Origin: Acidobacteria bacterium RIFCSPLOWO2_02_FULL_67_21
GTDB lineage: Bacteria > Acidobacteriota > Vicinamibacteria > Vicinamibacterales > UBA2999
Direction of reading: 5' to 3'
Assembly: GCA_001767195.1 (NCBI GenBank)
Contig: MEKU01000052.1
Coordinates: 1-48,501 of the forward strand
Length of the DNA stretch: 48,501 nt
Each line of letters begins with the position of its first letter. Position 1 is the first letter of the stretch. Below are positions 14,349 to 20,585 of this stretch, piece after piece. Below the pieces are notes generated by a model. The model ran no database searches. It saw only the letters and a program-made list of their open reading frames with translations, and was not told the DNA's origin. Position numbers and translations under genes: made by a program.

Positions 14349-15374
14349 CTACCGCCGGAAATACAGCACCTGAAACCGCCGGACGTTCCGATTGTGCTCG
14401 GCAAGCGTGGATGCGAACACGTGGGAACCGTCATTGCGGCTCACGAAGTACAGATAACTGACAGAAGCGGGCTCCAGCGCAGCCCTGAGGGAGGCTTCGC
14501 CGGGCGCCGCGATGGGGCCGGGCGGGAGCCCTGGGTGGCGATACGTGTTGTAGGGCGAGTCGAGCGCCAGGTCCTGGCGACGGATGTTGCCGTCGTACTG
14601 GCCTGCCGCCCGCAGGGCATACACCACCGTCGGATCGGCCTGCAACGCCATCCCGATCTTCAGCCGGTTGCGGTAGACGGCGGCCACGACCGGCCGTTCG
14701 TCTTCCCGCGCCGTTTCCTTTTCCACGAGTGACGCCAGCGTCACGACCTGTCGCGTGGTGAACCCCTGCTCCCGCGCGGCGCGCCGCAGCCCGTCGCCGT
14801 ACACGGCGCGGAAGCGCTCCACCATCTGCGCGACGAGCCGCGAGGCCGGCGTGCTGCGCGGCAGGGCGTACGTGTCGGGAAAGAGATAGCCCTCCAGATC
14901 CGCGGCGAGCGGATCGAGATCGCGCACGAGCGCCGGCGCGCGCGCGGCGGCGCTGAACTCCGACGCCGGCCCGAAGCCGCGGGATTCGTACAGCGCCGCC
15001 ATCTCGGCGATCGTCAGCCCCTCGGGCAACGTGAGGGGCCGCGCGTACACATCCCCGCGCGCCAGACGATCCACGACGTCGACGGCCGCCAGCGGGCGAT
15101 CGAACCGGTACTCCCCCGCCTGCAGCTGCCGCGACTGCCCCGTCCACCAGACCGCCGCGCGAAACGTGGAGGCGTCGCGAACGATCCCGGCCTCCTGCAG
15201 GCGCCGGGCAATGGCAGCGGCGCCGGCACCGGCCGGGATCTCGATGAACTGTGCCGCGGCGTCGAATCCCTTGTACGGCTCGTGCATGCGCCGCCAGACG
15301 AGGGTGCCGCCGACGGCCGCGGCCACGGCACCGGCCAGAGCCAGGACGATCACGACGGCGGCAGCCTTGCGCAT
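14349..15374 (-). CDS. mltG: Endolytic murein transglycosylase
   Basis: MltG cuts nascent glycan strands and sets their length. The 341-residue protein has an N-terminal membrane anchor (VVIVLALAGAVAAAVGGTLV), a LysM-like segment, then the YceG domain: LPEGLTIAEMAALYESRGF, LEGYLFPDTYALP, LASLVEKETAREDER with catalytic Glu218, VYRNRLKIGMALQADPTVVYAL, SPYNTYRHPGLPPGPIAAPG and YFVSRNDGSHVFASTLAEHN. The ATG follows the ruvX stop with no gap, so the pair is an operon. Confidence 0.96.
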   Translation of the reverse strand: MRKAAAVVIVLALAGAVAAAVGGTLVWRRMHEPYKGFDAAAQFIEIPAGAGAAAIARRLQEAGIVRDASTFRAAVWWTGQSRQLQAGEYRFDRPLAAVDVVDRLARGDVYARPLTLPEGLTIAEMAALYESRGFGPASEFSAAARAPALVRDLDPLAADLEGYLFPDTYALPRSTPASRLVAQMVERFRAVYGDGLRRAAREQGFTTRQVVTLASLVEKETAREDERPVVAAVYRNRLKIGMALQADPTVVYALRAAGQYDGNIRRQDLALDSPYNTYRHPGLPPGPIAAPGEASLRAALEPASVSYLYFVSRNDGSHVFASTLAEHNRNVRRFQVLYFRR

Positions 15375-15839
15375 TTACAGTTCGGGGTCGAGAGGTCGAG
15401 GAATCGGCCGGCCGGGGCGGACGTCCAGGTAGTCCTGCAGAATGACGGCGGCCGCGGCAGCGTCCAGACGGGTCTTTCGCGACCGCCAGTCCTTATCGGT
15501 CGTCGCGAGGCGGCTCTCGGCTTCACGGCTCGTCAACCGTTCGTCCTGAAGGACGATCGGCAGGCTCGTGGCCCTGCCGAGTGCGTCGGCGAATGCGGCG
15601 ACGCGCGGCGTCATCTCCGTATCGGATCCGTCAAGGCGGCGCGGAAGCCCAACCACGATGCCGGCCACGCCGTCGTCCTCGGCAGCCAGACGGGCCACCT
15701 CGCCTGACGCGAGCTGGACGGCATCGGCGTCGAGCGACGAAGGCCGCAGCACGCCAACGGGCCGCGCGAGCGTCAGGGTCGGGTCGCTGACGGCGACACC
15801 GATCCGCCGCTCACCGACATCGAGTCCGACGATCCGCAC
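15375..15839 (-). CDS. ruvX: RuvX/YqgF putative Holliday junction resolvase
   Basis: This is an RNase H-fold nuclease family linked to pre-16S rRNA processing and DNA junctions. The 154-residue protein starts RIVGLDVGERRIGVAVSD and contains IVVGLPRRLDGSDTEM, VLQDERLTSREAE and DAAAAAVILQDYLD, covering the acidic active-site positions. The start codon is GTG at 15839. It is directly followed by mltG, a common pairing. Confidence 0.95.
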   Translation of the reverse strand: MRIVGLDVGERRIGVAVSDPTLTLARPVGVLRPSSLDADAVQLASGEVARLAAEDDGVAGIVVGLPRRLDGSDTEMTPRVAAFADALGRATSLPIVLQDERLTSREAESRLATTDKDWRSRKTRLDAAAAAVILQDYLDVRPGRPIPRPLDPEL

Positions 15840-16016: not shown

Positions 16017-17174
16017 GTGACTCGAAGCGCCGCGCCATGCGGTGTTCTCGTCCTGGTTGCCGGCGCCCTGCTTGGGGCACAGCTGCCGGACCGCGCGCAG
16101 TCCGAGGCGCAGGCGAAGCGCGTCGGCGAGCGCATCCGTACGCTCGAGATCGAGGCCGACCGCCTCGCCCGCGAGGCGCGCACGCTGCTCGGCGACCTGC
16201 GTGCGCTCGAAGTCGAGCGGCAGCTGCAGATCGAACGCGTGGCGGCCGCGGAGGCCGACGTCGCGCGCGGCCAGCAGGCCGTCGATGAAGCGGTCACGCG
16301 GCTGCAGGCGCTCGAGCAGCAGCGTGTCGCGCAACTGCCCGATCTGAAAACGCAGCTCGTCGACGTCTACAAGCGCGGGCCCAGCGGATACGCCAAGCTT
16401 CTGTTCGGCACGACCAACGTGCGCGAGTTCAGCCGGGCCGCCCGCGCGGCCGCGGCGTTGATGCACCTCAACCAGGTGCGGGTGGCCGAGCACCGGCGCA
16501 CGCTGGACCGGATGCGCGGCGAGGGCGCGGCGCTCGAAGACGAGCTCCGCACGCTCCGGACACGCGAAGCGGATGCCAGGCGGGCGCAGACGGCGGCCGA
16601 TCGGGCGCTGGCCGCGCGCTCGGCACTGATCGCCCAGATCGACGCGCGGCGCGACCTGAACGCGCAACTGGCCGGCGAGCTGCAGATTGCGCAGGAGCGG
16701 CTGCAGCAGCAGATGGCCAGTCTCGCGGCAGGCCGGACGGGCGACCCGGTGGCGGTTCCGCTCGCCCCGTTCAGAGGCACGCTCGACTGGCCCGCCGCCG
16801 GACGCCTCGCGGTCCGGTTCGGCCAGGCGTCGGGCCGGGCGGCGGATGCGGGGGCGCGCAACGGCATCGAGATCGCCGCGCCGGAAGGGACGCCCGTCCG
16901 GGCGATCCATCCGGGCACGGTGTCCTACGCCGACGCCTTCGCCGGGTTCGGCAACCTCGTCATCGTCGATCACGGGGCCAATGCCTACACCCTCTACGGG
17001 TATCTCTCCTCCATGTCGGTCCGCCGTGGCGCCGTGGTCGATGCCGGGACCGAGCTCGGCTCCGTCGGGGCGGCCCCGGCCGGCCCGGCGGGGCTGTACT
17101 TCGAGGTCCGCGTCGACGGGCGTTCGGTTGATCCCTTACAATGGTTGAAACCTGCACCAGCCGGTAGCTGGTAG
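16017..17174 (+). CDS. envC: EnvC-like LytM-domain factor, non-catalytic
   Basis: EnvC-type proteins activate cell-wall amidases during division. The 385-residue product has a signal peptide (LVLVAGALLGAQLPDRAQ), a long coiled coil (about 30-240) and a C-terminal LytM/M23 fold (FRGTLDWPAAGRLAVRFG onward). The zinc ligands of active M23 enzymes are replaced: HxGxD is N282-G-I-E285, the YAHL histidine is lost in LYGYLS (326-331), and HLHFE is GLYFE (359-363). EnvC itself is degenerate at these sites, so an activator role fits. GTG 16017 is chosen for GGGAAGGA upstream; the frame extends 19 codons further. The last codons and stop lie in a TAGCTGG array. Confidence 0.88.
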   Translation: MTRSAAPCGVLVLVAGALLGAQLPDRAQSEAQAKRVGERIRTLEIEADRLAREARTLLGDLRALEVERQLQIERVAAAEADVARGQQAVDEAVTRLQALEQQRVAQLPDLKTQLVDVYKRGPSGYAKLLFGTTNVREFSRAARAAAALMHLNQVRVAEHRRTLDRMRGEGAALEDELRTLRTREADARRAQTAADRALAARSALIAQIDARRDLNAQLAGELQIAQERLQQQMASLAAGRTGDPVAVPLAPFRGTLDWPAAGRLAVRFGQASGRAADAGARNGIEIAAPEGTPVRAIHPGTVSYADAFAGFGNLVIVDHGANAYTLYGYLSSMSVRRGAVVDAGTELGSVGAAPAGPAGLYFEVRVDGRSVDPLQWLKPAPAGSW

Positions 17175-17192
17175 TCGGTAGCTGGTAGTTGG
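17158..17192. repeat. TAGCTGG heptamer array between envC and the S41 gene
   Basis: The units are TAGCTGG, TAGTCGG, TAGCTGG, TAGTTGG. It contains the stop codon of the EnvC-like gene. Unlike the other arrays it has one arm only. It ends 8 bp before the next ATG. Confidence 0.8.
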
Positions 17193-17199
17193 AGCAAAG

Positions 17200-18357
17200 A
17201 TGACAGCCCGCACGCGCGGCGTGGTTCTGGCGATCTCGACGTCGATCATGGTGTTCGCGTTTGTCGGGGGGTACCTCGGCCAGGCGCTCGCCAAGGACGA
17301 CACCTACCAGCACCTCCGTGTGTTCGAGGATGTCGTCTCGCTCGTCCTCAACAATTACGTCGAGCCGGTCGACGTCAGCCAGGCCATGAAAGGCGCGATG
17401 AAGGGGCTGGCCGACGGTCTCGACCCTGAGAGCGCCTACCTGACGGCGGACCTCGTCAAGGCCCTTGAATCCAACGATGCCGGCGGCGCGGCGGAAGTCG
17501 GGCTCGACCTGACGCGGCAGTACTATCTGCGCGTGATTTCGGCGCGGGACGGCTCGCCGGCGGCCAGAGCCGGACTCCGGCCGGGCGACTTCATCCGGGC
17601 GATCGACAACCGGCCCACGCGAGACATGGCCGCCTATGAGGGCTCGCGGCTGCTGCACGGCCAGGCAGGATCCAGAGTCTCGCTTCTGGTGATCCGCGGC
17701 AACGCCGCCGATCCCCACGTCGTCGAGCTGGTGCGCGAGCGTCTGGCGGGGCCCGAGCTCACGTCGCGCATGGCGAACGCCTCGACCGGCTATGTGCGGG
17801 TCGCGGAGTTCTCGCCGACGACGGCAGCCCAGTTGAAGCAGTCGGTCGACACGCTGGCCAAGTCGGGCGCATCGCGATTCGTCATCGACCTGCGGGGCAC
17901 CACCCGCGGCGATCTCGATCAGGGTATCGCGGCCGCACGGCTCTTCGTCAGGGATGGAGCGCTCACCGTGCGGCTCACGCGCGCCGACCAGCGCGAGCGC
18001 GTCACGGCGCAGCCGGGAGACGGCGCGGTGACGGCGCCCACGGCGCTGCTCATCGATCAGGGCACGGCGGGCGCCGCGGAAGTGTTTGCGGCCGCGCTGG
18101 CCGGCAACGATCGCGCCGATCTCGTCGGCATCAATTCGCTCGGCCGCGCCGCGCGCCAGCGGCTCGTGAAGCTGCCCGACCAGAGCGGGCTCTACCTCAC
18201 GTACGTCAGATATCTCACTCCGGACAACGATCCGATCCATGAAACCGGCCTCGAACCGGACGTGGAAGTCGAACTGCCGGAAATCGAGTTCGGCTCCGAT
18301 CCGCCCCCCGACGACGCCGCACTGCAGCGGGCGATCGATCATCTCGCCCAGAAGTAA
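17200..18357 (+). CDS. S41 (CtpA-like) peptidase homologue lacking the catalytic dyad
   Basis: The 385-residue protein has a membrane signal (AISTSIMVFAFVGGYLGQAL), the N-terminal helical segment (NYVEPVD, GLADGLDPESAYL), a PDZ domain (about 100-170; SPAARAGLRPGDFIRAIDN) and the S41 fold with a GLEPDVEVELP end. In active enzymes the nucleophile is the first Ser of GSASASE and the general base is the Lys of TFGKG. Here these regions read GTAGAAE and SLGRA, so Ser becomes Gly291 and Lys becomes Arg316, with the 25-residue spacing kept. It should not cleave peptides. Lying 25 bp after the EnvC-like gene, it may be a scaffold or adaptor for cell-wall hydrolases. Confidence 0.85.
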   Translation: MTARTRGVVLAISTSIMVFAFVGGYLGQALAKDDTYQHLRVFEDVVSLVLNNYVEPVDVSQAMKGAMKGLADGLDPESAYLTADLVKALESNDAGGAAEVGLDLTRQYYLRVISARDGSPAARAGLRPGDFIRAIDNRPTRDMAAYEGSRLLHGQAGSRVSLLVIRGNAADPHVVELVRERLAGPELTSRMANASTGYVRVAEFSPTTAAQLKQSVDTLAKSGASRFVIDLRGTTRGDLDQGIAAARLFVRDGALTVRLTRADQRERVTAQPGDGAVTAPTALLIDQGTAGAAEVFAAALAGNDRADLVGINSLGRAARQRLVKLPDQSGLYLTYVRYLTPDNDPIHETGLEPDVEVELPEIEFGSDPPPDDAALQRAIDHLAQK

Positions 18358-18614: not shown

Positions 18615-20585
18615 ATGAACGACGTCACCATCACGCTGCCGGACGGCGCCACGCGCACCGTGCCGGCGGGCACCACCGTTCGGGAGATTGCCGCGGCGAT
18701 TTCGCCCCGTCTCGCGAAAGCCGCGCTCGCGGGGACGGTCGACGGCCGCCTCGTCGACCTCTCGTGTCCGACCGAGCGCGACGCCGCGGTGCGTGTGATC
18801 ACCCCCGAGAGCCCTGAGGCGCTCACGATCTACCGCCACAGCACGGCGCATCTGCTCGCGGCCGCCGTCACGCACCTGTTTCCCGACGTGCAGTGCGGCA
18901 TCGGGCCGCCGACCGACGACGGGTTCTTCTACGATTTCGTCGTCCCGCGTCCGTTCGTGCCGGAGGATCTCGAGGCGATCGAGCGGAAGATGCGGGAGCT
19001 CGCGCAGCAGGACCTGCCGTACGAACGGCAGCTGTGGCCGCGCGAGGAGGCGCGGCGGTTCTTCGGCGCGCGCGGCGAGCCGCTGAAGGTGCAGCTCATC
19101 GACGAGAAGACCGAGGGGCAGGCGGACGTCTCGTGCTACACGATCAAGGATCCCGAGACGTTCGTCGATTTCTGCCTCGGCCCGCACGTGCCCTCCACCG
19201 GCCGCCTGAAGGCGTTCAAGCTGCTCAGCACGTCGAACGCCTACTGGAAGGGCGACGCGCGGAACCAGCCGATGCAGCGCATCTACGGTACCGCGTTCTT
19301 TGCCGACAAGGATCTGCAGGCCTACCTGCACCGTCTCGAGGAAGCCAAGCGGCGCGACCACCGGAAGATCGGCCGCGAGCAGAAGCTCTTCATGTTCCAT
19401 CCGTGGGCGCCGGGCGCCACGTTCTGGCTCGCGAAGGGGACGGTCCTGTACAACGTGCTCGCCGACTACATGCGCGAGGTGCTCTTGCCCGCCGGTTACG
19501 TCGAGGTGAAGGCGCCGATCGTCTTCAACAAGGCGCTGTGGGAGACGTCCGGGCACTGGCAGCACTACCGCCAGAACATGTTCCTCGTCGAGAGCGAGGG
19601 CGAGCAGATGGGCCTGAAGGCGATGAACTGCCCCGGGCACTTCCTGATGTACGCCAGCGAGGTGCGGAGTTACCGCGACCTGCCCCTCCGATTCCACGAG
19701 CAGACGCCGCTCCACCGGAACGAGGCCTCCGGCGTCTTGTCTGGCCTCACCCGTGTGCGGCAGTTCAGCCAGGATGACGCGCATTGCTTCGTGATGGAGT
19801 CGCAGATCGGCGAGGAGGTCGAACGGCTTCTCAGGCTCGTGCAGCGCGTGTACGGCGACTTCGGCCTGACGCCCGAGATGAAGCTGTCGACGCGGCCGGC
19901 GGAGTACCTGGGCACCGTCGAGCAGTGGAATCACGCCGAGGCTGAGCTCAAAACGGCCCTGAAAGCCGCCGGCGCCCCGTACACGATCAACGAGGGCGAC
20001 GGCGCGTTCTACGGGCCGAAGATCGACTTCGACGTCACCGACGCCATCGGCCGGAAGTGGCAGTGCGCGACGATCCAGCTCGACTACATGCAGGCTGAGC
20101 GGTTCGACCTCAAGTACATCGGCGCCGACAACGCCGAGCACCGCCCGGTCGTCATCCACCGCGCGATCTTCGGCAGCTTCGAGCGGTTCGTGGCGCTGCT
20201 CATCGAGCACTTTGCCGGGGCCTGGCCGCTGTGGCTCGCGCCGGTCCAGGCTGTCGTGCTGCCGATCGCCGACCGGCATCTGGCGTACGCCCGCTCGGTC
20301 AGCGAGCGGCTGTCGGCGGCGGGGCTGCGCGTCGAAGTCGACGAGCGCCAGGAGAAGATTGGCTATAAGATCCGGGAGGCGCAGCTGCAGAAGGTGCCCT
20401 ATATGCTGGTGGCGGGCGACCGCGAGTTGGCGGACGGCACCGTCGCGGTCCGCAGCCGGTCGGCCGGCGATCTCGGACCGCGCAGCGTCGCGGACTTCGT
20501 ACGCGCCGCGCTGGACGAGATCGGCAGCAAGGATCCCGGCGGCCAGGCCGCGCAGATGGAGACCGCCGGGGCCGCTGAGGCCTGA
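18615..20585 (+). CDS. thrS: Threonyl-tRNA synthetase
   Basis: The enzyme charges tRNA-Thr. The 656-residue protein has all domains in order: TGS ([19 protein letters not shown]), the editing domain with [11 protein letters not shown] and the later zinc site SCYTIKDPE, the class II catalytic core ([10 protein letters not shown] with the zinc Cys; [45 protein letters not shown]), and the anticodon-binding domain ([21 protein letters not shown] onward). Length is normal. It begins the thrS-infC-rpmI-rplT-pheS-pheT block. Confidence 0.98.

Follow-up and report, generated by a model that had tools for sequence, protein, structure and literature searches.

The CtpA homologue encoded beside envC in an acidobacterium is by sequence a conserved pseudoprotease

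In the usual view, CTPs of the S41 family are enzymes that control peptidoglycan hydrolases by degradation. Active CtpA degrades cell-wall endopeptidases, and in Pseudomonas aeruginosa its gene is part of an operon with the order envC-ctpA-PA5135, the last gene being yibQ/sddA (PMC12569750). The S302A and K327A substitutions each abolish P. aeruginosa CtpA activity in vivo on their own, and Q331A, which alters the third catalytic-site residue, has only a minor effect (PMC11021448). An oxyanion glycine has been described in Prc (PMC6686036); we infer that in active CTPs this glycine is supplied by the DLRxNxGG loop.

The DNA analyzed here (the window) is a stretch of 48,501 nucleotides from Acidobacteria bacterium RIFCSPLOWO2_02_FULL_67_21, whose genome comprises 4.19 Mb in 107 contigs. 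An envC-like gene (16017..17174, plus strand, in a frame open from 15960), an S41 gene (17200..18357, plus strand) and thrS (18615..20585, plus strand) are divergent from ruvX (15375..15839, minus strand; PF03652) and mltG (YceG family; 14349..15374, minus strand; PF02618). The mltG and thrS genes, the latter downstream of the S41 gene, are syntenic neighbours in related loci as well, and ruvX marks the locus across classes. An antisense open frame of 460 amino acids (16960-18342, minus strand) overlies the S41 gene; long frames of this orientation are frequent in the G+C-rich window, and this one was not taken as a gene.

The first gene of the pair encodes a protein with a signal peptide, which is obtained when the GTG at 16017 is used as the start, a coiled coil, and a C-terminal LytM/M23 domain (16857..17135, plus strand; residues 300-392 of the 404-amino-acid frame; Peptidase_M23, PF01551, E = 2.7e-24). 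EnvC is its best NCBIfam model (3.7e-24, 85 of 270 bits and thus under the cut-off), and the best structure-database matches are the EnvC-like chains 8tzk_E, 8i6o_E and 4bh5. When the domain was aligned with EnvC from E. coli and from across the phylum, the motif sites read NGIE, LYGY and GLYFE, and the zinc-ligand His and Asp sites were gone, as an earlier note on this DNA had claimed. The same kind of degeneracy, already familiar to that note, is found in E. coli EnvC (4bh5), where the sites read KGMVI, LYGY and LYFE and the zinc ligands are equally missing. The window protein thus shares with EnvC the signal peptide, the coiled coil, a degenerate LytM domain with LYGY and LYFE and, in Acidobacteriota, co-occurrence with FtsX, but it is far from E. 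coli EnvC in sequence and scores under the NCBIfam cut-off. The window genome also carries FtsX_ECD (G000:C5) and two Amidase_3 genes. On these sequence features, the protein is an ordinary EnvC.

The second protein, of 385 amino acids, belongs to the S41 CTPs as a sequence and fold family, since it has the N-terminal region, the PDZ domain and the S41 core; it is not an active peptidase of that family, because Gly291 and Arg316 replace the catalytic Ser and Lys. Pfam detects PDZ_6 (PF17820, 1e-13) and Peptidase_S41 (PF03572, 4e-34), and the prc model TIGR00225 matches at 3.3e-56 but reaches 190.7 of 218.6 bits, which is below its cut-off. All its parts lie on the plus strand. A hydrophobic N-terminal helix (17206..17292, residues 3-31), a membrane anchor or signal peptide seen in the AlphaFold2 model, is followed by the PDZ domain (17488..17739, residues ~97-180) and the core (17785..18270, residues 196-357). 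In an alignment whose Ser column was fixed by the S302A mutant chain 7rqh, Gly291 (codon 18070..18072) and Arg316 (codon 18145..18147) fall on Ser302 and Lys327 of P. aeruginosa CtpA, with a spacing of 25 residues in both proteins. Gln320 (codon 18157..18159), the equivalent of Q331, is retained. The DLRxNxGG loop and the PDZ G-x-G carboxylate loop, found in all intact sequences read, are altered as well: the window protein has DLRGTTRG (in loop DLRGTTRGDLD; 17881..17925, residues 228-242) and AEVGL, with Glu99 in place of the carboxylate-loop Gly. Thus, the replacement of the dyad at conserved spacing stands as first described, and by sequence both neighbouring proteins are catalytically dead. 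The fold is nevertheless that of a CTP. For the AlphaFold2 model (pLDDT 94.4), Z scores (VIA) were 37.5 against H. pylori CtpA, 36 against its P. aeruginosa counterpart and 33-37 against CTPs in general, and the fit covers most of the protein.

To determine how far the loss of the dyad extends, we compared 160 distinct sequences of short-S41 orthologues in Acidobacteriota that were readable at both positions (for other phyla, the state was taken from papers). Neither Ser nor Lys was present in 140, one of the two in 10 and both in 10, so that 150 of the 160 have no complete dyad, these counts being of sequences and not of independent events. All 10 intact sequences belong to a single family, f40. 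We therefore reject assembly error, chance or a local mutation as the source of the window's Gly and Arg. Gly is the commonest residue at the Ser site, where Asn, Gln, Arg, Tyr, Ala and Trp also occur. About a dozen residues are seen at the Lys site: Arg in most of the window's class, and Ala, Ser, Glu, Val, Leu, Gln and others outside it. The GG of the DLRxNxGG loop is kept in 20/150 dead versus 35/35 intact sequences. The long or long-like S41 sequences present the opposite picture, with Ser-Lys in 25 of 26, the exception (L211) being a distant S41 homologue. The public titles of three metagenome-assembled records used (L005, L006, L012) say Acidimicrobiia or Candidatus Sulfopaludibacter; their contigs match genomes of the window's family (G036, G017, G018), and the records are possibly mislabelled.

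The position of the gene identifies it. SddA/YibQ (PF04748) is encoded directly downstream of the short S41 gene in 12/12 SddA-bearing genomes checked, and envC lies just upstream in 9 of these (elsewhere in G202, G203 and G217), which places the S41 gene between envC and sddA, where ctpA is found in P. aeruginosa. A PF04748 gene is absent from the window genome, where envC is kept. In most loci of the Vicinamibacteria type, envC adjoins the S41 gene; the same holds for all 17 of the f40 genomes that have the short gene and for many deep-branching groups. Other classes repeat the window's arrangement, the S41 gene pointing away from ruvX-mltG, whether or not envC lies between them. From the shared envC-S41-sddA order and the ruvX-mltG synteny, we conclude that the envC-S41 pair is an old operon and that the window protein corresponds by descent to CtpA in the envC-ctpA-sddA operon, turned pseudoprotease. 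In one genome (G196), a very diverged S41-like frame of 344 amino acids (L233:1711-2742, minus strand; E = 3e-13) lies between envC and sddA; it has no recognisable dyad and is the most degenerate member seen. A TPR-repeat protein is encoded downstream of the dead S41 gene in family f58 (L127:4408-6111, plus strand); TPR repeats are likewise a feature of LbcA, the adaptor of CtpA in P. aeruginosa.

Intermediate states survive in f40, where 17 of 18 genomes have the short S41 gene. The forms found were Ser/Lys in 10, Ala/Lys in two, Gly/Lys in one, Ser/Arg in one and Gly/Arg in two, with one sequence truncated before the site; both Gly/Arg sequences also lack the GG motif. On a tree built from S41 and EnvC with the catalytic columns removed, the dyad state changed at least four times within the family (3-4 in bootstrap trees; a single change is forced when only well-supported branches are counted), and the Gly/Arg pair branched first, at the family base (support 84/98). 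On the wide tree, in which three long-branch placements are unsure, two changes suffice for the intact/dead state. We read the family as having lost the dyad several times independently from an active ancestor. Re-evolution of the dyad, formally short at two changes and with the Gly/Arg pair basal, is not preferred: the GG loop and the PDZ Gly are still present in the intact f40 sequences, and none of the short forms compared comes closer to P. aeruginosa CtpA than the tested f40 form (38%). Both points favour retention, short of proof. The earlier note had named orthologues with an intact dyad as evidence against its reading. They do exist in f40, but they date the loss and do not revive the window protein. 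The sister pair of Ala/Lys and Gly/Lys sequences (L222, L223) has a dN/dS of 0.39, the highest among the S41 pairs compared, as if selection had been relaxed just after the nucleophile was lost.

Loss of the dyad did not lead to loss of the gene. At a threshold of E < 1e-45, a short S41 match was present in 176 of 193 genomes of the window's class and in 115 of the 119 of good quality, and in almost all genomes the gene is open, full-length and under purifying selection. Pairs lacking both residues had dN/dS values of 0.07-0.27 (NG86; dS is high in many pairs), while intact f40 pairs gave 0.09-0.17. In every pair compared, the S41 protein was at least as conserved as the adjoining EnvC (identities of, e.g., 83% versus 72% and 82% versus 68%). 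We therefore reject pseudogene status on dN/dS and retention. Within the window's class, mean conservation was highest in the PDZ domain (0.72), followed by the dimerisation region (0.66) and the core (0.60), which fits a binding role.

We lean towards the view that the dead S41 protein is a membrane-anchored, non-cutting binding or regulatory protein of peptidoglycan remodelling in the periplasm, for which EnvC is not required; its periplasmic location, its binding function and its peptidoglycan clients are what we infer. The protein keeps the CTP fold, with the membrane-proximal helix, the N-terminal dimerisation region, the PDZ domain and the core, but has neither nucleophile nor base and, as a rule, no GG or PDZ carboxylate loop. 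It would bind, and leave uncut, a partner once handled by the ancestral CtpA, perhaps a hydrolase or its adaptor, or else an assembly factor, and this partner would thereby be positioned or restrained. In the window, it would work beside EnvC, but it would need no EnvC, FtsEX or amidases. Loci without EnvC have peptidoglycan genes nearby (mltG, class A PBP). This context may, however, be inherited rather than functional; thrS and ruvX are housekeeping neighbours, and non-envelope genes flank the S41 gene in some lineages (an aldehyde dehydrogenase at L160, a radical SAM gene at L125). Against binding, the degenerate PDZ carboxylate loop makes the classical route doubtful. The first Gly of this loop is kept in 29 of 150 dead sequences, 78 of which have Asp or Glu there, versus 34/34 intact ones; this weakens the canonical PDZ scaffold of the earlier note and suggests binding other than the classical capture of C-termini.

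The strongest rival, though a fairly unlikely one, is that the dead short CTP is an inactive partner that heterodimerises with the active long CTP paralogue of its own genome through the N-terminal dimerisation region and so controls it. A second S41 gene above the Pfam cut-off in the window genome encodes a long form of 544 amino acids with Ser-Lys-Gln intact; the cell is therefore not without a CTP. Such a long paralogue is present in nearly every genome of the window's family, and the long paralogues that could be read keep Ser-Lys. The dead protein retains the N-terminal region, and in P. aeruginosa CtpA dimers, which may serve as an analogy, only one of the two subunits is active (PMC11021448). 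The predicted model also resembles resting rather than active CTP subunits, with TM scores of 0.77/0.82 for 8sxe_B versus 0.54/0.57 for the active 8sxe_A, and of 0.75/0.67 for the resting 4c2e versus 0.57/0.52 for the active 4c2c, but this may mirror the training set of the predictor. Moreover, the short and long genes are unlinked (contigs C52 and C46), the long CTP also occurs in two genomes in which no short one was found (G193, G207), and the two forms are only 28% identical, which leaves a shared dimer interface unproven.

According to the earlier note, the S41 protein works with the EnvC-like factor as a PDZ scaffold, perhaps one that, at the division site, presents amidases or other hydrolases. 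The tight adjacency of envC and the S41 gene in many lineages and the standing of PDZ as the most conserved domain agree with a dedicated scaffold of this kind; by analogy, deletion of envC in Bordetella resembles deletion of ctpA, and the two may cooperate there (PMC8263021). The co-occurrence and the PDZ loop do not agree with it. Among 57 genomes checked for both partners, a sample chosen partly for the presence of the short S41 gene, full-length EnvC was absent in 35, all of which have the dead S41 protein, and FtsX_ECD was absent in 36, including these 35. The EnvC-less genomes include members of f12, f13, f14, f15, f18, f26, f37, f44 and f46, and within the window's class alone the presence of EnvC changed at least six times on the S41 tree. 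The association envisaged between envC and the S41 gene is thus not strict across the phylum, and we reject an obligate EnvC partnership. Counts free of this sampling condition, such as the class-wide one above, point the same way: in the EnvC-poor families f12, f13, f14 and f18, the S41 gene is retained in 13/14, 8/9, 26/28 and 10/10 genomes, respectively, so the dead protein has a role without EnvC. Seven mostly complete genomes that lack EnvC and FtsX gave no Amidase_3 match at E = 1e-10 either (G256, G264, G433, G302, G439, G420, G464). Three of these, from f37, keep the dead S41 gene next to ruvX, which excludes the presentation of amidases together with EnvC as its general job. We conclude that a scaffold dedicated to EnvC is an improbable reading and is excluded as the general function, although by analogy such a role may exist in the window's lineage. 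EnvC and the FtsX extracellular domain themselves agree in 56 of the 57 genomes (the exception is G217) and have been lost jointly and repeatedly.

That the protein still cuts peptides with other residues, through a migrated nucleophile or with Arg as the base, is very improbable. Of the 150 dead sequences, 127 retain Gln at the Gln320 position, and in f18 a Cys is conserved where the Ser would be, but many residues occupy the Ser and Lys sites, the GG loop is mostly lost, and a single S302A or K327A substitution kills CtpA. The Cys form was found at L069-L077, L079, L120, L121, L123 and L124, with Arg at the Lys site and Pro or Ala at the Gln site; EnvC and FtsX were both absent from the f18 genomes tested. 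That the gene is a decaying, functionless remnant is hardly credible, since fast divergence is confined to a few groups (long branches, and the G196 form) and the gene is otherwise open, full-length, under purifying selection and carried by nearly every good-quality genome of the class.

Our literature search found no S41- or CtpA-derived pseudoprotease and no account of its spread in Acidobacteriota, within incomplete journal coverage. We give an even chance to the broader proposition that, throughout this phylum, the CtpA of a core envelope operon has become a non-proteolytic regulator that is independent of the FtsEX-EnvC module beside which it started and has outlived it, and that f40, with its active, half-dead and dead orthologues, lets the change from protease to regulator be traced stepwise. 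Retention of a CtpA gene across this large phylum of soil bacteria without its catalytic residues suggests that part of the job of CtpA needs no cutting, and the natural intermediates of f40 (Ser/Lys, Ala/Lys, Gly/Lys, Ser/Arg and Gly/Arg) could separate its binding role from its proteolytic one. Having lost EnvC and FtsX together several times, the phylum also offers a natural experiment in how division copes without that module.

Compared with P. aeruginosa CtpA (PA5134), the window protein has the same domain order and fold and 34% identity, and the operon neighbours are the same in deep-branching Acidobacteriota; it differs in that the P. aeruginosa enzyme carries the dyad (Ser302-Lys327) and has LbcA as its activator, whereas the window protein has Gly/Arg and degenerate GG and PDZ loops. 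Proteins with the S41 fold that are not proteases are already known: the modules of IRBP/RBP3, which the model matches with Z scores of 16-20, use the fold for binding, without protease activity, albeit in the unrelated setting of an animal retinoid carrier. Pseudoenzymes that regulate hydrolases, such as DipM and EnvC, are likewise known. In iRhoms and DipM, a dead enzyme fold is retained as a regulator, as proposed here (PMC6451368; PMC10336132), but these and other regulatory pseudoenzymes belong to other families, none of them S41 CTPs. A parallel from the envC operon itself is ATU2773 of Agrobacterium tumefaciens, an inactive SddA/YibQ that has lost its catalytic residues while keeping its place with envC (PMC12440217); it is a member of the PF04748 deacetylase family and not a protease.
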